Source: a bacterium
Lineage (GTDB): Bacteria; Hydrothermota; UBA3072; JAPDKE01
Reading direction: 5' to 3'
DNA: 64,000 bases
Assembly (NCBI GenBank): GCA_029258725.1
Contig: JAPDKE010000031.1
Span: 1 to 64,000, forward strand
In this document: positions 12,167-32,864 of the stretch, piece after piece
Layout: each line of letters begins with the position of its first letter
How positions within the stretch are numbered: the first letter of the stretch is position 1
Program-made: the position numbers and the translations under genes
Notes under the pieces: generated by a model
The model's database searches: none
The model's input: only the letters and a program-made list of their open reading frames with translations
Told to the model about the DNA's origin: nothing

Positions 12167-12568
12167 TTACATCCGAACGTTTTCTTTTACGATTTTTTCT
12201 ATACAGAAAATGAATTTGGTTGCTTTTTCAATGTATTCTTTTACCTCATCTTTTTCAAACGACACAAAATCTTCATAATCACTTTCTCCTCTCAAAAGGA
12301 ACATCCTGTCGTAAAATTTACCCATTTCACGGGGGACTATTCCAGGTTTTACAAATTCTCGGTGAAATAATGCACGGACTCCGGAATGTTTTGATGCTAT
12401 AAGATTTTTCGTTCTTAAAAGAGAAAGTACCGCATAGAACATTGCGTAATAAATTCTGTTTACACAGGAATTATATCTTTCATTTTCAAAAAGTATTTCT
12501 GCATCTTTCAGTGTTTCACGGGCCCGGACAAGCCGATATTTTATAAGACGTACAATATCTTCCTTCAC
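12167..12568 (-). CDS. HEPN domain protein
   Basis: 133 residues with a GTG start. It has the PF05168 HEPN pattern: charged helices, then YNSCVNRIYYAMFYAVLSLL and KHSGVRALFHREFVKPG. HEPN proteins beside minimal nucleotidyltransferases are usually RNase toxins silenced by the MNT partner. I find no R-x(4-6)-H RNase motif here (the nearest is RALFH, with three residues between), so activity is doubtful. The GTG overlaps the stop of the MNT gene upstream. That partner is itself frameshifted. Confidence 0.8.
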   Translation of the reverse strand: MKEDIVRLIKYRLVRARETLKDAEILFENERYNSCVNRIYYAMFYAVLSLLRTKNLIASKHSGVRALFHREFVKPGIVPREMGKFYDRMFLLRGESDYEDFVSFEKDEVKEYIEKATKFIFCIEKIVKENVRM

Positions 12569-16234: not shown

Positions 16235-17527
16235 ATGAAGGATTATGAACTGTTGAAGAAAATCTATCCATGGGAGAGGGTGGAAGGAGTGAGAAAGGGG
16301 CTGGAGAGACTTTCCGGGAAAATGGAGAATTACATCCCGTTTGAAGAAATAGGGCTTGCTCTTCTTTCCATGAACAGGTGTTCTTTTGGTAATGCAGTGA
16401 GGAATCTCATTGATGTCTGCCTTTTATACCTCTATGCCCTGCGATGGATTGATGATGTTGAATTAACCTCGGGATACCTCAATCCTGAAACAGGTTTGAC
16501 ATTGCTTAAAATGAAAATGGACTTTGTGATTGAGAATGTATGGGAGATTTTTGAAGAGTGGAAGAAGAAAAGGGAAGACCACATTACACAGACTGCGGCA
16601 GTTTATGCCCTTTATGGAATATGGGGAATTCTACTCCGCTTTGTGGAGGACATGGAGAAACTCCACCAGGACCCGGAGTTTGCAGAGAACATATATGAGA
16701 AAATGGCAATCTCTTCTTTTTACATATTGCTTGCAAATGAAGAAGAGGCGGAGGAATTCAGAAAGTTTGTATGGAAGGGATATTCCTCCCTTTATCCACG
16801 GGAACTGGAGGAGAGGATAAAAAAGGCAATTCCTCTGGAGAGGGTGGAGGAGGTTAAGGAGTTTGTAAATACCGTGATGGAGCCGGGTGAGGATGAAGAA
16901 CCGATAGAAAAACTTGACCATGCCCCCATTTTACATTCACTCAAAAAAGAGGGTTATCGCCCGAATCCTCATGAAGAAATCAGGTATCTTTATTCCACCA
17001 TTGAGAATCTCTTTCATCTTCCTTATGAGATTTCTGCTGCTGTGGGGTTTGTGAAACTCTATGCCGCGTTGCTTTATCTTGCGGGAAAGATAAACAAAAA
17101 TGAGTTTGAAAAGGCAAAAGAGGATGTAAGATTTGCAAGAAGGATGATAAAGGAAAGAGGAAGGGATTTTGGTGGGCTCTATGATGTTTTTAAAAAGGTT
17201 GAATTTGCAATGGTGAGTCTTCCCTATTTCTTCTTTTACCGTCTTTTTGCGGGGTTTGCAAGGAAGGGGATGATGATACTCATGAGGAGGATTTTACACG
17301 TGCTTGAAAGGATACATAAGGAAAATCTTTCTCTCAGGTTTCATATTTCTTACGGGGATGTGGTTCTTATCTATCTTGCGCAGGTTATGGATGAGCATTT
17401 CATTGATACCAGAATTTCTGGTTATGGGAATCCATGGGAGGAATTGAAAAAGGAATGTATGGAATGGAAGGATGAGGTGAGGAAGGCAATAAAAGCAATA
17501 AAAGAAAAGGGAGGTGAGCATGCTTGA
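16235..17527 (+). CDS. Unknown helical protein, repeated architecture
   Basis: 430 residues, mostly helical, soluble or peripheral. The motif YPWERVEGVRKGL at the start recurs as IPLERVEEVKEFV near residue 200 and as IPAEKVERLKDVV in the next gene. The C-terminal part (GFVKLYAALLYLAGKINKNEF and RILHVLERIHKENLS) is clearly paralogous to the next product. No enzyme motif recognised. Followed by a paralogue whose ATG lies inside its last codons. Confidence 0.55.
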   Translation: MKDYELLKKIYPWERVEGVRKGLERLSGKMENYIPFEEIGLALLSMNRCSFGNAVRNLIDVCLLYLYALRWIDDVELTSGYLNPETGLTLLKMKMDFVIENVWEIFEEWKKKREDHITQTAAVYALYGIWGILLRFVEDMEKLHQDPEFAENIYEKMAISSFYILLANEEEAEEFRKFVWKGYSSLYPRELEERIKKAIPLERVEEVKEFVNTVMEPGEDEEPIEKLDHAPILHSLKKEGYRPNPHEEIRYLYSTIENLFHLPYEISAAVGFVKLYAALLYLAGKINKNEFEKAKEDVRFARRMIKERGRDFGGLYDVFKKVEFAMVSLPYFFFYRLFAGFARKGMMILMRRILHVLERIHKENLSLRFHISYGDVVLIYLAQVMDEHFIDTRISGYGNPWEELKKECMEWKDEVRKAIKAIKEKGGEHA

Positions 17528-18158
17528 CAAAAAGAAAATCACTGAGGAACTTGAGAGGTGGGAGAGGGAGATGCAGGAGAGAAAACCTATAGGGGATGGG
17601 GTGGAGATTTATGTGGATAAGGAGGAGGTAAAAAGGAGGATACCTGCTGAAAAGGTTGAAAGGTTAAAGGATGTTGTGAGGTATCGTTTTTCTCTTGAAG
17701 ACCCGAAGGATGTTGCGTCAAGGGTGTTCAGCGGGATACTGCTGAATGGGGCTTATCGTGAGTTTTTAAGAGGTTTCCTCTGCACTCTTTATCTTGCGGG
17801 GAAGATAGGGGATGAGGAATTGAAGAGAGGGCTTAAGGATGATGGTGAGTTGAAAAATATTCTTCACGAAAAGGGAAAAGAGGTTGAGGAGTTTTACAGA
17901 ATTTTTGACCTGCTTGATGGAATGGACTTTGAGGTGGATGGAATTCCTTTTGTTTTCAGGCAGGTTGCAGGGGGATGTGGGCTTTTCCTTGCCTGTGCTT
18001 TGAGGGAGGTTGTGGACTATCTTGACAGGGTTCATAAAGGTGAAAACCCATCGGAATCTTTCCTTGTTTCTGCCTATCTGGTTGACTTCCTCTGTTCTAT
18101 CACAGGATGGGAGTTCAGGAAGATGAGAAGGTTTAAAATTGAAGAAGGGAGGGAGTGA
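17520..18158 (+). CDS. Unknown protein, paralogue of the preceding gene product
   Basis: 212 residues from ATG 17520, chosen because GGGAGGTG lies just upstream and contains the alternative GTG at 17514. It matches the C-terminal third of the preceding product: LCTLYLAGKIGDEELKRG and EVVDYLDRVHKGENPSES. A split duplication is likely. Function unknown. Its TGA overlaps the next ATG. Confidence 0.55.
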   Translation: MLDKKKITEELERWEREMQERKPIGDGVEIYVDKEEVKRRIPAEKVERLKDVVRYRFSLEDPKDVASRVFSGILLNGAYREFLRGFLCTLYLAGKIGDEELKRGLKDDGELKNILHEKGKEVEEFYRIFDLLDGMDFEVDGIPFVFRQVAGGCGLFLACALREVVDYLDRVHKGENPSESFLVSAYLVDFLCSITGWEFRKMRRFKIEEGRE

Positions 18159-18962: not shown

Positions 18963-18991
18963 TTGACATGAAACGGTGGGAGGGGTATAAT
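18963..18991 (+). promoter_or_regulatory. Perfect sigma70 promoter of the AAA/CHAT cassette
   Basis: TTGACA (18963-18968), 17-base spacer, TATAAT (18986-18991), both hexamers matching the consensus. The leader to the ATPase ATG is about 50 bases and ends in a strong site, AAAGGAGGGAAAG. This makes the cassette independent of the upstream operon. Confidence 0.85.
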
Positions 18992-19050
18992 GGGGAGAGG
19001 GAAAGAGGAAAGAGTAAAAGGTAAAAACAACAAAAAGAAAGGAGGGAAAG

Positions 19051-21462
19051 ATGGAAAGAAAACATGCTGCTTTAAGAGGGCTTCCTTCTACATTAAAAAT
19101 GAGAGGATGTAGGCAAGAAGATATCGAGCTTATGAATAAAGGAAAATACGAAGGAATAGATGGAGAAGATCGTTCAACCACAGCTGAATTTATCAAACGA
19201 TATCGCTTTGCTCATGAATGGTTCTGGTTTTATGAATTTCCTGAAAAGTTTCTCAAAGAAGAAGGTTTGGAGCCAGGTTATTATTATTTTGGGATAATAA
19301 AAGAGAATGTTAAGAAGAACTTTAAGGATTGGATAAAAAAAGAGGGTAAGGAGTCTTTAATTTTTGTGTTAACTGCGGATATGCACTTTATAGGAGTATA
19401 CGGTGCTCCGGAGATATACGAAGGAGAGATAAATCTAAATCGTCTTTTGGATTGGGTGGATGAGAATGATCCTATCTATAAATGTTTGAAAAAATATAAA
19501 GAAGAAAAGATCATTAATGATGAAGGGAAAGAAATGAGAAAAGAGGAGAAAACGAAAGCTCTCAAGATGCTGGTAGACTTAAGATCTCCTATTAAGTACT
19601 CGATACTCTTTAGGAATCCTATAAAATATAAACAGGGAGATTACGGTACTTTTGATGAAAATCTCAGTAGCGCACTCGTTATATATAAAGATAAATACAT
19701 TACGGATGATCAGGCCATTAATATCTTACTCGATGCCTATAAAAATGAGCCTTGCGAAAATAAAATAAAAATTCTGAGAATTCTTCAGGAGAAGTTTGAT
19801 ATGGAAATGGTAAAAGAAAAAGCAAAGGAAAAAGGGATAGATATAGAGTTTCTTTCTCTCCCTGCTTTTCTTCCTGAATCTCATCTCAAAAACCTTCTTG
19901 TCTCCGCCCTTGCCAAGCCTTTTGTTATACTTGCGGGGATTACAGGGACGGGAAAGAGTTTTATTGCGAGGGAGTTTGCCAAAGCGATAGGTGCAGAGTA
20001 TCTTATGGTTCCTGTAAGACCTGACTGGAATGATCCATCTGCATTGATTGGATATAAAAATGTATTGGCAGGAAAAGAAGGAGAATGGATATCAACTCCT
20101 TTCCTTGAGTTTATACTTGCTGCAAATGCAGAATATAAAGAAAATAAAAAAGATCCTAAACCCTATGTAATTATTCTTGACGAAATGAATCTTGCAAGGG
20201 TTGAATATTACTTTTCTGACTTTTTAAGTGTGCTTGAAGATCCAGAAAGAAAAACGACAGGGATGAATATAGAAAGCGGGATACCGATGAGGATAAATTA
20301 TAAAGGAGAGAGCGAAGAAGGATGGAAGGAAAGGTGGTTAAGGATCCTTATAAAAGAAGAGAAATTAGAAAAACTGAAGGAAGTGAATAAGAAAGGAAAA
20401 AAGAAGGAAAACAAAGAAAAATGGGAAAAAGTTAAAAAGAAGAAAGATCTTCAAAAAGGAGAGTGCCGGATTGAAAAATTAGAATTTCCTTCGAATTTAC
20501 CTCCCAACCTTATAGTGATAGGCACTGTGAACATGGATGAAACCACCTATGCTTTCTCTCCCAAGGTGCTGGACAGGGCGAATACGATTGAGTTTGTGAT
20601 GGTGGATTTGGATAAATACTGGGAGAAAACAAAAGAGGAAGATGTCCAGCAATGTGTAAAGGTAACCAAGCCTCCTATCTGTTTCTTCAAAGAGATAACT
20701 GAATTCATGAACAAGGAAGATAACGAAAAGGGAAATAAAAAAGAGTGGAGAAAGAAGCTCTTGGAAAAAGTGAAGACCGAACTTAAAAATGTTATTCAAC
20801 CCGATGATAAAGAAAAGGGAATTATTAAAATTTTGAATGACATAGAAGATATTCTTGTGACCCGCAACTTCCACTTCGCTTACAGAACCTTTGAGGAGAT
20901 ACTTTTCTATCTTTACTGGTGGTACAGAGCATTTATAAAAACTGAGGAGGAAAGTGAAGAAGGAAAAAATAAGGAAAACAAAGAGGAAAAACCTAACGAT
21001 TGGTGGTGTGAGCCGCTTGATTTCCAGATTCTTCAGAAAATCCTGCCAAAGATAGGAGGAGATGTGCAGAGGGTGGGAGATGTGATAGATAGATTGATAG
21101 AGACACTCGTAAATCGTGAGGAAGTGGATGAGGAAATTAAAAAGGCGCTTCTTTTGGAGAAAAAAGAAGGAAAATATAGCGGGTTGAAGTCTTGGGACGA
21201 TATTAAGGTTCAGGTGAATAAATGTTTAGAAGCATTAAGAGAGAAAGAATTTAAAATCGAAGAAGAATGTGGAAAAGCCTCGGGTGAGGAAGGCGAAGGA
21301 GGCAATGAGACTCCTGAAAACTCAGGTGAGACTGGTAATGATAACCAGGGCGATAATCCAAATCCTTATCTCAACTTCCCCTTCCTCCGTTCCCTCTATA
21401 AACTCCTGAGGATGAAGGAAAGGCTGGAGAAGTTTGGAACCACATCGTTCTATGAGTATTGA
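19051..21462 (+). CDS. McrB-like AAA+ ATPase
   Basis: 803 residues. Residues 1-200 form an N-terminal region with SLIFVLTADMHFIGVYG that may be a PUA/EVE-like reader (weak). The AAA+ module has Walker A GITGTGKS (296-303), RPDWNDPSALIGY typical of McrB, Walker B VIILDEMNLARVEYYFSD (373-390) and sensor 1 IGTVNMDETTYAFSPKVLDRA (490-510). The McrB GTP signature MNTAD is VNMDE here. A Lys-rich insert (~415-475) separates Walker B from sensor 1. The C-terminus is acidic and low complexity before an aromatic tail. It probably assembles as a hexamer and drives the DUF2357 nuclease two genes on. Base composition is more AT-rich than in neighbouring housekeeping genes. Confidence 0.85.
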   Translation: MERKHAALRGLPSTLKMRGCRQEDIELMNKGKYEGIDGEDRSTTAEFIKRYRFAHEWFWFYEFPEKFLKEEGLEPGYYYFGIIKENVKKNFKDWIKKEGKESLIFVLTADMHFIGVYGAPEIYEGEINLNRLLDWVDENDPIYKCLKKYKEEKIINDEGKEMRKEEKTKALKMLVDLRSPIKYSILFRNPIKYKQGDYGTFDENLSSALVIYKDKYITDDQAINILLDAYKNEPCENKIKILRILQEKFDMEMVKEKAKEKGIDIEFLSLPAFLPESHLKNLLVSALAKPFVILAGITGTGKSFIAREFAKAIGAEYLMVPVRPDWNDPSALIGYKNVLAGKEGEWISTPFLEFILAANAEYKENKKDPKPYVIILDEMNLARVEYYFSDFLSVLEDPERKTTGMNIESGIPMRINYKGESEEGWKERWLRILIKEEKLEKLKEVNKKGKKKENKEKWEKVKKKKDLQKGECRIEKLEFPSNLPPNLIVIGTVNMDETTYAFSPKVLDRANTIEFVMVDLDKYWEKTKEEDVQQCVKVTKPPICFFKEITEFMNKEDNEKGNKKEWRKKLLEKVKTELKNVIQPDDKEKGIIKILNDIEDILVTRNFHFAYRTFEEILFYLYWWYRAFIKTEEESEEGKNKENKEEKPNDWWCEPLDFQILQKILPKIGGDVQRVGDVIDRLIETLVNREEVDEEIKKALLLEKKEGKYSGLKSWDDIKVQVNKCLEALREKEFKIEEECGKASGEEGEGGNETPENSGETGNDNQGDNPNPYLNFPFLRSLYKLLRMKERLEKFGTTSFYEY

Positions 21463-21586
21463 TATAAAAAGGTGCCTTAAATTATACTATGAGCAAAAGA
21501 AAAAGGAGAGGGAACTTGCAAAGAAACTTGCAAGGATACTGAAAAAACATGCAAAGGAGAAAAGAAAAGATAGAAGGAATACTTGA
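21452..21586 (+). CDS. 44-residue basic protein between ATPase and sigma factor
   Basis: ATG at 21452 overlaps the ATPase stop and TGA at 21586 lies inside the sigma-factor gene. The product begins MSIDIKRCLKLYYEQKKK, is helical and very basic (about 16 Lys/Arg of 44). It bridges the gap between two tightly spaced genes and may serve translational coupling or encode a small partner. There is no strong ribosome site, so it could be non-functional. Confidence 0.35.
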   Translation: MSIDIKRCLKLYYEQKKKERELAKKLARILKKHAKEKRKDRRNT

Positions 21587-22445
21587 AGCATACTTTGATA
21601 TCTATGTGAAATACGATAAAGAGGCACCGCCTGTGAAAATCCCTGAAAAGGTAGAACCCTCACCGGTGCCCCCGTTTGGAAAACTTTTAAAAGAACTCCT
21701 TTCATCAACCTATCTTCCGGATTTCTGTATGGCAGTCCACTTTGACCGATACGCCCTTGAAGACCTGTTTGAGAATGCATATGTGCTTTCACCTGAAGAA
21801 GCACAAAGAATAGCGGAATACTTCCCGGACAAGAAAGACCTTCTCCTTCAGTCCTATCGGGAAACGGTTTTCCTTCCGGTAATCATAGGACCACCGGTAA
21901 GAGGGAAGAGAAGAAAAAAGCCTGATAAGGATTATGAAGAGGATAGAAGGATAATAGAAAAGGTGCTGGAAGGAGAAATTGAGGAGATGAATGAACTTAT
22001 TGAAAAATACGGAGGATTGGTAAAGAATATAATCTGGAAGATTCTGGAAGAGGATGAGAGGATTTTCCTTGAAGACCTTTATCAGGATACATGGGTAAAA
22101 GTCGTTAAGAAACTTCCAACACATTATGACTTCACCCGAAGTTTTAAATACTGGCTTTCCACCATTGCAAGAAATGTGGCGATTGATTTTATAAGGAAGG
22201 AAAGAAAGAGAAAGGAAAAAATTAAAGAGAAAGAGGAAACACCCTTTCTTGAACCTCACATAGCAGACGAACTGGATTACTGCCTTTCCCTCCTGCCGGA
22301 AGAGGAAAGAAGCCTCATAGAAATGGTTTTTTACTGGGGATTTAACCAGAAGGAGATAGCCCGGAAACTCGGCGTTTCTCCTGCCACTGTGAGTGCAAGG
22401 TTGAAGAAGATATATAAGAAACTTGAAAAATGCATGGAGGGATGA
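21549..22445 (+). CDS. Sigma-70 family (ECF-like) factor with N-terminal extension
   Basis: 298 residues. The second half is a two-domain sigma factor: region 2 around NELIEKYGGLVKNIIWKI, YQDTWVKVVKKL and FKYWLSTIARNVAIDFIRKER, and region 4 around LLPEEERSLIEMVFYWGFNQ and KEIARKLGVSPATVSARLKK. ECF factors are usually 170-200 residues; here ~130 unassigned residues come first (with a Pro-rich PEKVEPSPVPPFG stretch). They could be an autoinhibitory or protease-sensitive region. The gene sits between the ATPase and the nuclease-protease gene and overlaps the latter, so it is an integral cassette member. Confidence 0.85.
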   Translation: MQRRKEKIEGILEAYFDIYVKYDKEAPPVKIPEKVEPSPVPPFGKLLKELLSSTYLPDFCMAVHFDRYALEDLFENAYVLSPEEAQRIAEYFPDKKDLLLQSYRETVFLPVIIGPPVRGKRRKKPDKDYEEDRRIIEKVLEGEIEEMNELIEKYGGLVKNIIWKILEEDERIFLEDLYQDTWVKVVKKLPTHYDFTRSFKYWLSTIARNVAIDFIRKERKRKEKIKEKEETPFLEPHIADELDYCLSLLPEEERSLIEMVFYWGFNQKEIARKLGVSPATVSARLKKIYKKLEKCMEG

Positions 22446-25291
22446 TGGGAGAAGGAAAGGTATTGTTAAAAATAATGTGCCCGAAGCAAAAATACGAGGA
22501 GGCGGTAAAACATACATTGCTGAGCAAAAGCCAAGAACCTGAATGGTTAAGAGAATTGAGAAAGAGGTATGAAGTGAAAATAATAGAAAAGGGAGAAAAT
22601 AAAGGATATAAATGTTTGACCATCTGCGAAAAGGAAAATAAAGAGAGTGATTTTGATAATGAGAATGAGAAGGCTTTTTATTTCTTTGAAAATTTAAAAT
22701 ATAAATTTTATGTTTGTGCAGACAAGCCCTGGGAACTTAAAATAGGAAATGAGGTACAGAAAATAGAGGAAGTGGTGGAAAAGGAAGAAAATAATGAACG
22801 TAAAAGATATCATTTATATCTCTATACCTGGAAAAACTGGATTGGGTGGTGCACGATAAAGTGTGGGGATATTGAGTTTACGCCTTTTATTCATTCAACC
22901 AAGATGGACGATGAATTGGATTATATGAGAATGATAATCTTTATTGAAAATACATTCCGCAGGATTGCTTATGAATTCTTCTCTCCTGTTCACATTTACC
23001 TGCAGAGGGCATGGGAGTATGGAGAGGATATTTTCATTGAGAGACTTGAAAAATTATGGAAGAGAGTGAAGGTGGCGATGTTCTTCATTGAAAAAGACCC
23101 CCATAAAAAGATTGTGAAAAGGGAGGTTAAAAGATTTATATGGCAGGCAAAGGGGAACAACCCGAGGCTCGGGAAACATCTTGCAAAAGAAGGGCAGTGG
23201 ATTGAGGTGAAAGAGTCAAACCTTTCGGTGCCGGTTGCGTTGAAAGAAAAAGTTCCCCTTCACATTGTTGATGTTGTCAATGAAATTTCTTACGATACCA
23301 TCCCGAATAGATTTCTTTCGTTTTTCTTCACATGGATTGAAAGGAAACTGGACAGGATAATAAAGTATTATGAAAAGAAGGGCAAAGATTCTGATAAACT
23401 CAGAATTGCAGGAGAGGTTTTGAGGGATGCAAGGAGATTGAGAAACCTGGAATTTCTCCGTGATGTCCCGCCCCTTGCCGATTTCAATATAAACACCCTC
23501 GTTCTCGTGATGGACAGGAATTATTCCATAGTGTGGAATGTCTTTCAGGAACTGAGAAGAATTCTCACCCTCTCCTTCTCCGAACTTTACGATTACTCCA
23601 TCTATCCCATTGAAAAACTTTACGAACTCTTCATCTTCTGTGCAGTGATTAAGACGTTGGAGAAAGCGGGGTATAAGATAGAAAATCAGACGGTTATAAA
23701 GAAAACAATGTTTGATTACCAGATAGAGTTAAAAAGAGGGAAAGTTGAAATGGTAAAGAAGAAGAAAAAAGAGGAGGAAGAAAATCTTAGAAATAATAGA
23801 AAAAAGGATGAAATAGAAAAAATAATTGTGTATTATCATCGGGGATTTACTTCAGAGAATATAGAGGAAAAAAGGAAAAAGAAAGAGCCCTATACTCCCC
23901 TTATAAGATTAATCCCTGATATTACCATAGAGATAAAAGAAGGAAAAAATAAAAAATCTCGCTGGATTTTCCTTGAAGGGAAGTATATGAGAAAAGAAAA
24001 GGTGGAAGAGTTAAATGAAAAGATAAAAAGCGAAGAAGATGAAGAGAGAGAAGGTATAGAGACCACCGGAAAGATTTTCAAAGAAAGATTTGTCGCAGAA
24101 GCAATAAAGGCAGTGCATGCATATCTGGATGGGATTAAGGTAGATGAAGAAGAATGCCAGAATGATAAACAGAACGGCAAGAAAAACCAGGAGAAAAAAA
24201 CTTCTCATAAAACAGGAGTTGCGGTTTATCCGGGAATAAAGGGCAAAGAGAAATTCAACCATAGGGAGAGAGAAGCACTTGTAAAAAATTACAATATAGA
24301 TGTTCTCGGTCTCCTTCCAAGAAGGTGGGAAGGGGAGATGGTAGAGGGATTTGATAGATGGGTATGTAAGGAGGAGAAAAAGGGCTGTTTTAAAGAGAAA
24401 GTGATAGAGTATATCAAAAATGAGGTTATAAAAAAATACTTTAACAAAAACGAAAATAAGATGAATAGAGTTTTAAAGTCGTATCCTAAAATACGCGATT
24501 ATCTTTATGCTGTGGAATTTTTCGAAATTGAGGACTTAAAACCACAATCCGAAATAGGAAAAGATAAGGGAGAACACACTGTTCCTCCCTGGGTAGTGGA
24601 GAAAATAAACGAAAGAAAAGAAAAAATCACCCTGGATAAACTCAGGATTGCGGTTATAGGTGAAGATGCAGATTATATGTGCATCAAAGAAGCATGGAAG
24701 GCGAATGTAAAAACAAAGAAAGAAGAACCAATAGTATTTCTCCCTTCCGTTGACGGCTGGGCTTTTGGAAAGGCTGGAAAATTTGATATTATTCATGTAG
24801 GAACTCATTTTGAGATAGGAGAGAAGGAAGAAGTATCATACTTTCTCAATCCCTTTGAGGATTTTGTGCTGGTAAATCCTTATGCTGAAAAAGAGAAGAA
24901 AGAACCTGTCCCACTTTCTCCGTACGACCTTTTCTATTCTCAGGCAGTGTCTCCAAACACTCTTGTAGTTCTTGCAGTGTGCAATGGTGCATTGGAAGGA
25001 GAGAAAATATTTAAACATAGTGATGAGGGAGAAAATTCACAGGAAACAGAGGGAAGACTCTTTTCTTCCCTCTCCCTCGCCGATGTATTTATCCTTATGG
25101 GAGCAAGAACAGTGGTGGCAACGGAAAATAAAATAGAAGATACGGAGAAGTTGGTAAATGCATTTGAAAATTTCTATGACGAGCTTCTAAAAGGAAAGGA
25201 TGTAAATAAAGCACTTTCAAAATTAAAGGACTTTAACTTCCAAATCTTCGGCGACCCCGGATGGAAAATAGAATATACACAAAATCCCTAA
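22430..25291 (+). CDS. McrC-like DUF2357/PD-(D/E)XK nuclease fused to CHAT protease
   Basis: 953 residues counted from ATG 22430; ATGs at 22442 and 22445 follow GGAGGG and may be the real start. Residues ~85-330 resemble DUF2357. A PD-(D/E)XK nuclease follows, with the helix KLYELFIFCAVIKTLEKAGY (396-415), D497 in RLIPDITIEI and E516-x-K518 in FLEGKYMRK. Residues ~735-950 form a CHAT (caspase-like) domain: FDIIHVGTH with catalytic H793, TLVVLAVCNGA with Cys851, then SLADVFILMGARTVVAT, FYDELLKGKDVNKAL and FGDPGW. Both dyad residues are present. The nuclease-CHAT fusion is not an arrangement I know. It should act with the McrB-like ATPase. Confidence 0.87.
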   Translation: MHGGMMGEGKVLLKIMCPKQKYEEAVKHTLLSKSQEPEWLRELRKRYEVKIIEKGENKGYKCLTICEKENKESDFDNENEKAFYFFENLKYKFYVCADKPWELKIGNEVQKIEEVVEKEENNERKRYHLYLYTWKNWIGWCTIKCGDIEFTPFIHSTKMDDELDYMRMIIFIENTFRRIAYEFFSPVHIYLQRAWEYGEDIFIERLEKLWKRVKVAMFFIEKDPHKKIVKREVKRFIWQAKGNNPRLGKHLAKEGQWIEVKESNLSVPVALKEKVPLHIVDVVNEISYDTIPNRFLSFFFTWIERKLDRIIKYYEKKGKDSDKLRIAGEVLRDARRLRNLEFLRDVPPLADFNINTLVLVMDRNYSIVWNVFQELRRILTLSFSELYDYSIYPIEKLYELFIFCAVIKTLEKAGYKIENQTVIKKTMFDYQIELKRGKVEMVKKKKKEEEENLRNNRKKDEIEKIIVYYHRGFTSENIEEKRKKKEPYTPLIRLIPDITIEIKEGKNKKSRWIFLEGKYMRKEKVEELNEKIKSEEDEEREGIETTGKIFKERFVAEAIKAVHAYLDGIKVDEEECQNDKQNGKKNQEKKTSHKTGVAVYPGIKGKEKFNHREREALVKNYNIDVLGLLPRRWEGEMVEGFDRWVCKEEKKGCFKEKVIEYIKNEVIKKYFNKNENKMNRVLKSYPKIRDYLYAVEFFEIEDLKPQSEIGKDKGEHTVPPWVVEKINERKEKITLDKLRIAVIGEDADYMCIKEAWKANVKTKKEEPIVFLPSVDGWAFGKAGKFDIIHVGTHFEIGEKEEVSYFLNPFEDFVLVNPYAEKEKKEPVPLSPYDLFYSQAVSPNTLVVLAVCNGALEGEKIFKHSDEGENSQETEGRLFSSLSLADVFILMGARTVVATENKIEDTEKLVNAFENFYDELLKGKDVNKALSKLKDFNFQIFGDPGWKIEYTQNP

Positions 25292-25306
25292 CCACAGGAG
25301 GTAAAA

Positions 25307-27046
25307 ATGATGCATGAATTTTATGATGCAAGTTTAATGTCGGTAGAAAGACTGTTTGAAGGGAAGGTTTTTCGTGTGCCTGACTATCAGAGAAATTACT
25401 CCTGGGAAGCCAGGCAGTGGGAAGACTTCTGGAACGATATAAAAGATGGATTAGAAACACATACCGAACATTACTGGGGAACTATCATATTGAGAAAGAT
25501 AAAAGGTGAATTTTTCTATTTCAAAGAGGAAGAGAAACGCTACGAAGTTTACGAAGTAGTGGATGGACAGCAGAGGTTGACAACTCTTTATCTTTTCTTC
25601 CTTGCACTCTCCAGAGTGGGCAGGAAAGAAATATTTTTCAAAAGATATGTAAAATCTGGTGACATTTACCGACTGGAACTTGGAGGACTAAATAAGAAAT
25701 TCATTAAATCCCTTGTTGATGGAAATCCCATAGAACCCGATATAAAAAGTAACAGACTCCTTAAAGAATGTCTGGAATACTTTGAGGACCAGATACGCGC
25801 CTACGGAAAGATAGATGAACTTTCCGGATATGTGCCCAATCTTACTTTTTCACTGGAGTTCGTCCTCCTTGATGAAATCCTTGCAGTGAAAGCCTTTGAA
25901 ACTCTTAACGATAGGGGAAAGCCCTTAAACCTTCTGGACAAAACAAAAAGTTTTCTCATGTTCTTTTCCGTGAGATACGCGCCGGATACTCGGCCTGAAA
26001 TAAACAGGATTTTTGGAAATGTCTTCACTGCATACGACCTTATAAAAGATACAGGAGAAAAGGAAGGAATAGACTATATAAAAAGCAATAGATTTACTGA
26101 AGACGAACTTTTAAGGTTTTTCTACCACTACTTTGCCCATTACGCTATCCAGAAATACAACCTTCCCGATCCCTATTATTATGACACTTCTGCAGCGGAT
26201 GTATTTGAAATCTTTATAAAAGGCGCCTGTAACCATCTCAAACAGGATCCCGGGAAACTCAAAAACTTCGTTCACGAATTTCTCACAGAACTTGACAGAT
26301 TTGTTCACGCCTTCCAGAAACTTATGGAGGAAGTAAAAAGCAATAGCACCATCCGCAGGCTATTTTGTTTTTCAGGACTTGATGCACGAGTTTATCCACT
26401 GATCATCGCGCTTAAAGCCACAGGTGATGAAGCACTCCTGGACGATGAAATGCTCCATCTCATAGATGTCCTTGATATGAGGATATACAAGATAAAGGGA
26501 ACAGACCCGAGAGCCGACCTCTACCGGAATGTGATTGCGACTATAAAAATGAATCCTGATAGAGATAAAATAAAAGAGGGAATAAGAGAATTTATAAACC
26601 GTTTCATGTCTGATGAGTCTTTTTCATACCATCTCAAGGGACATCTTTATCAGAATAAAGCCACCAAATATATCCTGTGGGAATACGAAAAATACAAAAA
26701 TCCGGAGTTCAATGACCTTGATTATGAACTTTATACGAAATGCCAGAAAGAACACATACTTCCTCAAGCCCCCGGAATGAAATTTCCTGCTTATGGATTT
26801 AAAGATGAAGAAGACTACTTTTCCACTATCCATACCCTTGGTAACCTGTGCCTCCTGGAAGAAGACCTGAATGTCAAATGCCAGAATAAAGGGCTCCAGG
26901 AAAAGGCTCGGTATTATCAGACCTCCCGAATAAAAACCACCCGCACCCTGGGGTTTGAAATAGAAAATCGTGGTTTCACCTGGGAAAATATAGAAAAAAG
27001 AACAGATGAAATAGCCCGGTTCTGTTTGATGCACTGGAAATTGTGA
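25307..27046 (+). CDS. GmrSD-type DUF262-DUF1524 modification-dependent nuclease
   Basis: 579 residues. DUF262 (GmrS) N-terminus: VPDYQRNYSW (24-33), VVDGQQRLTTL (84-94) and FETLNDRGKPL, the nucleotide-hydrolysing ParB-like core. DUF1524 (GmrD) HNH end: CQKEHILPQAPG followed by STIHTLGNLCLLEEDLNVK and the Lys/Tyr/Ser tail. GmrSD cuts DNA with glucosylated hydroxymethylcytosine; relatives such as BrxU act on other modified bases. All key motifs look intact. A strong site AGGAGGT precedes the ATG, 15 bases after the nuclease-CHAT gene, so it belongs to the cassette. Confidence 0.9.
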   Translation: MMHEFYDASLMSVERLFEGKVFRVPDYQRNYSWEARQWEDFWNDIKDGLETHTEHYWGTIILRKIKGEFFYFKEEEKRYEVYEVVDGQQRLTTLYLFFLALSRVGRKEIFFKRYVKSGDIYRLELGGLNKKFIKSLVDGNPIEPDIKSNRLLKECLEYFEDQIRAYGKIDELSGYVPNLTFSLEFVLLDEILAVKAFETLNDRGKPLNLLDKTKSFLMFFSVRYAPDTRPEINRIFGNVFTAYDLIKDTGEKEGIDYIKSNRFTEDELLRFFYHYFAHYAIQKYNLPDPYYYDTSAADVFEIFIKGACNHLKQDPGKLKNFVHEFLTELDRFVHAFQKLMEEVKSNSTIRRLFCFSGLDARVYPLIIALKATGDEALLDDEMLHLIDVLDMRIYKIKGTDPRADLYRNVIATIKMNPDRDKIKEGIREFINRFMSDESFSYHLKGHLYQNKATKYILWEYEKYKNPEFNDLDYELYTKCQKEHILPQAPGMKFPAYGFKDEEDYFSTIHTLGNLCLLEEDLNVKCQNKGLQEKARYYQTSRIKTTRTLGFEIENRGFTWENIEKRTDEIARFCLMHWKL

Positions 27047-30992: not shown

Positions 30993-31232
30993 ATGAAGAG
31001 AGGAATTTACAGGTTCAGGAGTTTTGAAGAAAAAGAAGATTTTGAAAGAAGGGAAAGGTTAAAAGAAGGACTTTCTCCCCGAGATTACGATAGATTTGAA
31101 TACATCCGCACCCATGTTAAAATCTATCCGCCTGGAATTTACCGATTCCGGAGCATTGAGGAAGAATGGAAAGATGAGTTTGAGAGGGTGATGAAAAAAT
31201 GGAGAGAAATGCATGGAAAAGAAGTTCCTTGA
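30993..31232 (+). CDS. Small protein before a nucleotidyltransferase gene
   Basis: 79 residues, charged. It contains the same short motif twice, GIYRFRSFEE at residues 4-13 and GIYRFRSIEE at 48-57, which suggests an internal duplication. It overlaps the next gene by 20 bases, the same spacing as the 9.1/9.35 kb pair, so an antitoxin-like partner role is plausible. Family not recognised. Confidence 0.5.
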   Translation: MKRGIYRFRSFEEKEDFERRERLKEGLSPRDYDRFEYIRTHVKIYPPGIYRFRSIEEEWKDEFERVMKKWREMHGKEVP

Positions 31233-31677
31233 AATATGCAAAAGATTCAATCAGTATGAGGTTGAATATATAGTATGCGGTGCATATGCCTGTAAACTGC
31301 ATGGGATTGAAAGGATATCAGGACAGACAAGAATTACACACGATATAGACTTTCTTGTAGACCCTTCTCTAGAAAATGTCAAAAGAATAAAGGAAGCCCT
31401 GAAAGACATGCTAAAAGATATAGAGGATCTTAAAGAAGAAGATATTGAAAAGTATCAGGTAATAAAGATTGTAGGAGAGATAGAGATAGACCTTATGAGT
31501 TCTCTCTGGGATATTGACTACGAAAAAGCAAGTAAAAGAAAAAAAGTAATAAAAGTGGAAGGAGTGGAAATCCCGGTGATGAGCATTGATGATCTTATTT
31601 TCACCAAAGAAAAATCCTTTCGCGAAAAGGACAGAGTGGATGTTTTCTGGTTAAAAGAGTTGAAAAAACAGTTATAA
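31213..31677 (+). CDS. Nucleotidyltransferase-fold protein (AbiEii/DUF6036-like)
   Basis: 154 residues. VEYIVCGAYACKLHGIER, then RITHDIDFLVD carries the DxD acidic pair of the nucleotidyltransferase fold, and EIEIDLMSSLWDID supplies the third acid. A C-terminal VMSIDDLIFTKEKSFREKDRVD completes the family pattern; the product looks full length. Such proteins are often toxins of two-gene systems that modify tRNA or nucleotides. The partner is the small gene overlapping upstream. Confidence 0.75.
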   Translation: MEKKFLEICKRFNQYEVEYIVCGAYACKLHGIERISGQTRITHDIDFLVDPSLENVKRIKEALKDMLKDIEDLKEEDIEKYQVIKIVGEIEIDLMSSLWDIDYEKASKRKKVIKVEGVEIPVMSIDDLIFTKEKSFREKDRVDVFWLKELKKQL

Positions 31678-31981: not shown

Positions 31982-31997
31982 TTAAATGGAGGGAAAG

Positions 31998-32864
31998 ATG
32001 AAGCAACTGAATGAAAAGGAAGTGATTGAGATTATTGAGCGGGAATTACCTAGGATTATAGAGAAGCATCCTGAAGTAAGGATGCGGATAGAGGAAATTT
32101 TAGAGCGCAAGGCTGCAACCAAGGATGATATAAAGGCAGTCCTGCTTGAACTTCAGCGTCAGAGAGAAGAAACGAACAGGAGATTTGAGGCCATGGAGAG
32201 GCGGTTTGAGGCCATGGAGAGGCGGTTTGAGGCTCTTCAGAGGGAGATGAACGAGAGATTTGAGGCCATGGAGAGGAGATTTGAGGCCATGGACAGGAGA
32301 TTTGAGGCTCTTCAGAGGGAGATGAACGAGAGATTTGAGGCCATGGAGAGGAGATTTGAGGCCATGGAGAGGAGATTTGAGGCCATGGACAGGAGATTTG
32401 AGGCTCTTCAGAGGGAGATGGACAGAAGGTTTGAGGCGGTGCAGATGGAGATAGCAACATTAAATCGCACGGTCTCCGCTCTTGGTTCACGATGGGGATT
32501 GATTGCAGAAAATTCATTCAGGCGTGGATTCAGGGAGGTCCTTTCACAACTTGGCTATGAGGTTGTAAAATGGAGGCGCATGGACAGAGAGGGTAAGTTT
32601 TTTGTAAAGCCAAGAACTGCTGAGATTGACATACTTATCAGGGATGACAGGCGTATAGCGATAGAGGTAAAGTCTTCTCTTTCTTACGGTGAACTTGAGA
32701 ATTTTGAACGCACCATCAGATTCTACGAAAGCGTGGAAGGTGAAAAGGTTGATGAGGCACTGGTTGTTACGATGTATTGTTATCCTGGTGTTCGGGAATA
32801 CGCAGAAGAACTCGGAATAAAAGTTTTAATAGGATATGAGGAAGGGGAGGAATACCTGAAGTAA
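31998..32864 (+). CDS. Coiled-coil PD-(D/E)XK nuclease-like protein (DUF3782-like)
   Basis: 288 residues from ATG 31998 (GGAGGGAAAG upstream, promoter spacing fits). Order: a helical head (~1-55), a coiled coil built from near-identical heptads of type RRFEAME (~56-145), and a C-terminal restriction-endonuclease-like fold. In the latter, AEIDILIRDDRRIAIEVKSS gives D and ExK, and GSRWGLIAENSFRRGF is the family's entry helix. DUF3782-type proteins are common in thermophiles and of unknown function; DNA cleavage is inferred only. The heptad coding repeat is a minisatellite. Confidence 0.8.
   Translation: MKQLNEKEVIEIIERELPRIIEKHPEVRMRIEEILERKAATKDDIKAVLLELQRQREETNRRFEAMERRFEAMERRFEALQREMNERFEAMERRFEAMDRRFEALQREMNERFEAMERRFEAMERRFEAMDRRFEALQREMDRRFEAVQMEIATLNRTVSALGSRWGLIAENSFRRGFREVLSQLGYEVVKWRRMDREGKFFVKPRTAEIDILIRDDRRIAIEVKSSLSYGELENFERTIRFYESVEGEKVDEALVVTMYCYPGVREYAEELGIKVLIGYEEGEEYLK
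32181..32436 (+). repeat. In-frame minisatellite coding for coiled-coil heptads
   Basis: Tandem 21-base units (AGATTTGAGGCCATGGAGAGG and close variants) alternate with a 33-base unit coding RFEALQREMNE. Two or three 21-base units precede each 33-base unit, giving a higher-order repeat present three times. Near-identity at DNA level suggests recent expansion; unit number is likely variable between strains. Every unit keeps the frame. Confidence 0.85.

Follow-up and report, generated by a model that had tools for sequence, protein, structure and literature searches.

Organisation of the operon

The window, by which we mean the whole 64-kb stretch of DNA analyzed here, belongs to a metagenome-assembled genome (MAG) of 2.1 Mb in 53 contigs, from a bacterial phylum taken to be WOR-3. 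The initial annotation described five frames on one strand, overlapping or 15 bases apart behind a perfect promoter, and all of the coordinates as well as the promoter were confirmed on re-checking. The promoter is of the sigma-70 type (TTGACA-N17-TATAAT, positions 18963–18991 on the + strand), matching 12/12 consensus positions with a 17-nt spacer, and is the sole 12/12 match within the window. A second promoter-like site, at 21459, matches 10/12 positions and was discarded as being at chance level.

All five frames are on the + strand. The first gene (19051–21462) encodes an McrB-like AAA+ NTPase of the NxD branch. It is followed by a putatively coding, Lys-rich frame of 44 codons (21452–21586), which overlaps both of its neighbors, sharing 11 nt with the stop end of the ATPase gene and 38 nt with the start of the next gene; its 44-residue product gave no match in the family search, and no independent support for the frame was found. 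The third gene (21549–22445) encodes an ECF-type sigma factor with regions 2 and 4, and the fourth (22430–25291) a protein composed of an McrC-like DUF2357 domain, a PD-(D/E)XK nuclease and a C-terminal CHAT domain. The start of this fourth gene is ambiguous: an ATG at 22442 would yield a classical ATGA overlap with the stop codon of the sigma factor gene. The last gene (25307–27046), which begins 15 nt downstream of mcrC-CHAT, encodes a GmrSD-like DUF262/DUF1524 (HNH) type IV restriction protein.

The operon had also been described as AT-rich, with proteins rich in Lys and Glu. GC3 is indeed low, at 0.36–0.41 in the operon genes against mostly 0.42–0.52 nearby. Lys and Glu together make up 25–27% of each large protein except GmrSD, where the share is an ordinary 18%, so that low GC3 combined with a high Lys/Glu content holds for three of the four large proteins and does not extend to the last. 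An origin of the operon from a mobile element was considered and not adopted: neither a tRNA nor an integrase-like border nor a flanking repeat turned up there.

Several other genes in the window deserve mention. Just upstream of the operon (16235–18158) are two overlapping genes encoding proteins of 430 and 214 residues, which have no significant family match and which, by eye, resemble each other. A small AT-rich gene on the minus strand (12167–12568, GC 0.34) lies in a local GC trough and has a HEPN-like look; it is possibly one half of a HEPN/MNT toxin–antitoxin pair. On the other side of the operon, the protein encoded at 31986–32864 contains perfect 21/75-bp tandem repeats, giving a coiled coil of the RFEAMERRFEA type, and its C-terminal stretch reads by eye as a nuclease-type domain; near it is an AT-rich nucleotidyltransferase gene (31213–31677, AbiEii/DUF6036-like).

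The McrB–McrC pair and its CHAT domain

The ATPase matches Pfam AAA_5 (2.5e-8), the PADLOC family PDC-M26A (3e-42) and structures of Escherichia coli McrB (3e-5). It carries a Walker A motif (GITGTGKS, residue 296), a Walker B motif (VIILDEMN, residue 373) and the signature TVNMDE (residue 492, within TVNMDETT), which is of the NxD type. According to PMC11090510, the NxD motif marks a large, uncharacterised branch of McrB proteins that includes the CoCoNuTs. Residues 1–275 of the ATPase have no match in the family search, and this N-terminal domain of about 275 residues is presumed to be the specificity domain. We note that a WOR-3 locus (L028:5487-11055) encodes an NxD McrB and an McrC with a 133-residue gene product between them, and that the N-terminus of its McrB has a faint motif, HEWxxFY, in common with the McrB of the window (E 0.14).

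The product of the fourth gene matches PF09823 (DUF2357, 5.7e-17) and PF04411 (PDDEXK_7, 7.7e-12), and its nuclease residues D497, E516 and K518 are intact. The combination of DUF2357 with PD-(D/E)XK is the definition of McrC given in PMC11090510. The structure model of this protein is reliable across DUF2357 and the greater part of the nuclease, while the CHAT region is not resolved; its sole significant fold match is to McrC (6hz4 chain M, E 8.6e-6). As judged from the McrB structure and NxD matches of the one protein and the DUF2357, PD-(D/E)XK and 6hz4 matches of the other, the two make up a single type IV restriction pair, the first being McrB and the second McrC. The initial annotation had listed restriction modules together with a protease and a sigma factor; Pfam bears out the domains, but the ATPase and the nuclease-CHAT protein are one McrBC pair rather than separate modules. 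The two genes are on the same strand, in a run of overlapping frames, with the sigma factor gene in between. Among related pairs, mcrB and mcrC are directly adjacent in 68 of 76, and mcrB is immediately upstream of mcrC in 58 of these 68. There is good support for reading this as a restriction operon of the defence type, and it is predicted to restrict modified or foreign nucleic acid.

Against the cut-off of 24 bits for PF12770 (CHAT), the full-length protein reaches 23.9 bits, and the CHAT region searched by itself reaches 26.5 bits. A local CHAT profile, which was built from 39 WOR-3 CHAT sequences, scores 32.8 bits against residues 779–932 of McrC and places His793 and Cys851 at the catalytic positions. 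The domain is a divergent, caspase-like CHAT with an intact His/Cys dyad. A catalytically dead tail, serving as a protein-binding scaffold, would be in keeping with the whole-protein score just short of the Pfam cut-off and with the Phe that takes the place of the usual Gly after the catalytic His (HVGTHF); we regard this as very unlikely, given that both His793 and Cys851 fall where CHATs of the active type have their catalytic residues.

This protein is the only CHAT protein and the only DUF2357 protein in its genome, and among 70 McrC proteins scanned it is the only one with a CHAT domain. The fusion is absent from about 110 related McrBC loci and from the Chloroflexota and Bacillota-type genomes searched, and no other McrC-CHAT was found in 147 WOR-3 genomes. 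In two other phyla, with 400 and 399 genomes, McrC relatives match the DUF2357-nuclease part only; a third phylum, that of genome G167, gave no match, in a search that also failed to recover the known McrC of G167 itself. Homologue scans for McrC-CHAT returned nothing from genome contigs, viral contigs, plasmids or phages, and the CHAT region gave a single, insignificant match to plasmids. An McrC or McrBC with a CHAT domain, a caspase or a sigma factor is not described in the literature searched. McrC-CHAT thus appears to be a new McrC architecture, unreported in the databases and literature searched, and it is of interest as such, with the defined residue pair His793 and Cys851, even without the wiring that we propose below.

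The sigma factor and GmrSD genes

The sigma factor matches Pfam Sigma70_r2 (1.3e-13) and r4_2 (1.2e-11) and TIGR02937 (6.6e-29), as well as structures of ECF sigma factors. It carries a helical N-terminal extension of about 130 residues, which is possibly HTH-like; the AlphaFold model (pLDDT 47) is too weak to identify this domain. The sigma factor has no match in viral contigs, and its N-terminus has none in plasmids.

No sigma gene lies between or adjoins the McrBC genes in the best 80 genome relatives, and none adjoins them in 20 further loci of Bacillota and Chloroflexota type. One locus (L089) has an ordinary sigma gene about 480 bp upstream of McrBC, and three sigma matches in WOR-3 (L037–L039) were rejected as ordinary sigma genes without McrBC. 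CHAT proteins are themselves common in WOR-3, occurring in 38 of 147 genomes, and a true sigma factor is found next to the CHAT gene in none of 40 neighborhoods. Conserved linkage of the sigma factor with the CHAT nuclease, on which the initial annotation had staked its proposal, was not found in the other genomes searched: with no second case in WOR-3 or the other phyla searched, the linkage rests on one example, a single observation in one MAG. In a WOR-3 genome of the same class (L189:1-2984), a TPR-CHAT gene overlaps a gene for a 290-residue protein whose C-terminal HTH is similar to sigma region 4. This was considered as a second CHAT–sigma pair and rejected, as the second gene matches HTH families only and not the sigma regions in Pfam; the two are possibly another protease–regulator pair.

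The GmrSD protein matches Pfam GmrSD_N (2e-34) and GmrSD_C (8e-16) and contains the DGQQR and HNH motifs. A relative with 55% identity occurs in WOR-3 genome G111 without McrBC beside it, and GmrSD is therefore probably an associated but separable module. The proposal of a new cassette survives in part: there is a new McrC architecture with an embedded ECF sigma factor, seen once, but the five-gene unit is not established, because GmrSD occurs without the rest of the operon. We note that at L211:8500-11236 a 55%-identical GmrSD gene overlaps a gene for a 337-residue protein without family assignment, and that nearby is a gene whose protein start reads as TIR domain-like (MTPNNKLRLFISYSHQDED).

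These distributions bear on a reading in which the sigma factor and GmrSD are both passengers, or loosely associated genes of a defence island, and the functional unit is simply McrBC, its CHAT domain being an accessory that aids assembly or self-processing of McrC. The lack of a second sigma–McrBC pairing in the roughly 110 related loci, together with the GmrSD relative that lacks McrBC, would be expected on such a reading. The position of the sigma gene, between the two McrBC subunits and overlapping mcrC, argues against it, since a random insert there would risk breaking the tight mcrB–mcrC order of most relatives; we consider it unlikely.

Proposed mechanism and comparison with known systems

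In our best model, to which we assign a probability of roughly 40%, this is an McrBC operon in which recognition would activate both the McrC nuclease and the CHAT domain, and CHAT would in turn free or activate the sigma factor. The N-terminal domain of McrB would recognise foreign or modified nucleic acid, and the NTP-driven assembly of McrB with McrC would switch on the nuclease, while conformational coupling would pass this activation on to the fused CHAT. The protease would then cleave either the N-terminal extension of the sigma factor or a small partner, and the freed sigma factor would induce additional genes for defence or dormancy. GmrSD would contribute an independent nuclease. The sequence shows intact motifs for hydrolysing NTP, for cutting DNA/RNA and for proteolysis by a cysteine protease, and the sigma domains and the overlap of the genes in one operon can be read from it too; the wiring between these parts we infer. 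It is proposed by analogy with type III-E CRISPR, whose loci encode the ECF-type CASP-sigma; Csx30 inhibits this sigma factor and is itself cut by Csx29, a CHAT protease (PMC10028731).

The model is favored by the location of the sigma gene inside mcrB–mcrC with overlapping stop and start, while most related loci keep the two genes adjacent. Against it, there is one copy of the arrangement of CHAT and sigma, neither a substrate nor an anti-sigma protein was found, the CHAT domain is divergent, the structure models are poor for the sigma factor and for the CHAT region, and a perfect promoter of the housekeeping type already precedes the operon. This promoter implies that basal expression of the operon needs no special sigma factor, and it fits with a different role for the protease. 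Caspase-like proteases, CHAT among them, are known to act as effectors of cell death in bacteria, and CHAT might act in abortive infection, cutting host or phage proteins to stop growth once McrBC is engaged. The sigma factor would then escape cleavage by CHAT and would only tune the expression of the operon or of genes close by. We think this somewhat unlikely, as nothing next to the operon encodes a gasdermin or another evident target through which the cell could be killed, and as the sigma gene overlaps its neighbors inside the operon instead of lying at one end of it.

The locus suggests that sensing of invasion may be wired to a response in gene expression, as in our best model. If this is true, then restriction systems, which have long been regarded as simple cutting devices, are able to signal via a protease to RNA polymerase, and the coupling of a CHAT protease to a sigma factor is a reusable module beyond CRISPR.

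The operon shares with the McrBC systems of the NxD branch, as presented in PMC11090510, an NxD AAA+ McrB, an McrC of DUF2357 and PD-(D/E)XK, and an operonic arrangement. It differs from them in the fusion of McrC to CHAT and in the ECF sigma gene inside the mcrB–mcrC pair; among the partners of McrBC, the main text of that paper mentions no CHAT domain and no ECF sigma factor. The NxD signature is also shared with the CoCoNuTs. Unlike these, in which a HEPN or other nuclease partner makes up for a missing or dead McrC nuclease, the operon has no HEPN gene and the nuclease residues of its McrC are intact. No long coiled-coil partner of McrB was seen in the operon, and the N-terminal 275 residues of McrB are without a family match. 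The last gene resembles other GmrSD (DUF262–DUF1524) proteins in its DGQQR and HNH motifs and in having both Pfam domains, and is different in lying 15 nt behind McrC-CHAT.

The remaining comparison is with Craspase/CASP, which consists of Cas7-11, the TPR-CHAT protein Csx29, Csx30, Csx31 and CASP-sigma (PMC10028731). In both systems a CHAT protease and an ECF-type sigma factor are encoded together with a nucleic acid-targeting complex. The operon described here differs in having no gRAMP/Cas7-11, TPR, Csx30 or Csx31, its large open reading frames all being otherwise assigned; its CHAT domain forms the C-terminal part of McrC, and McrB would take the role of sensor. We tentatively suggest, with less confidence than for the model above, that it may be a CRISPR-independent counterpart of Craspase, in which a DNA-translocating McrBC sensor would act through its fused protease to release a dedicated ECF sigma factor and so start a transcriptional immune programme.
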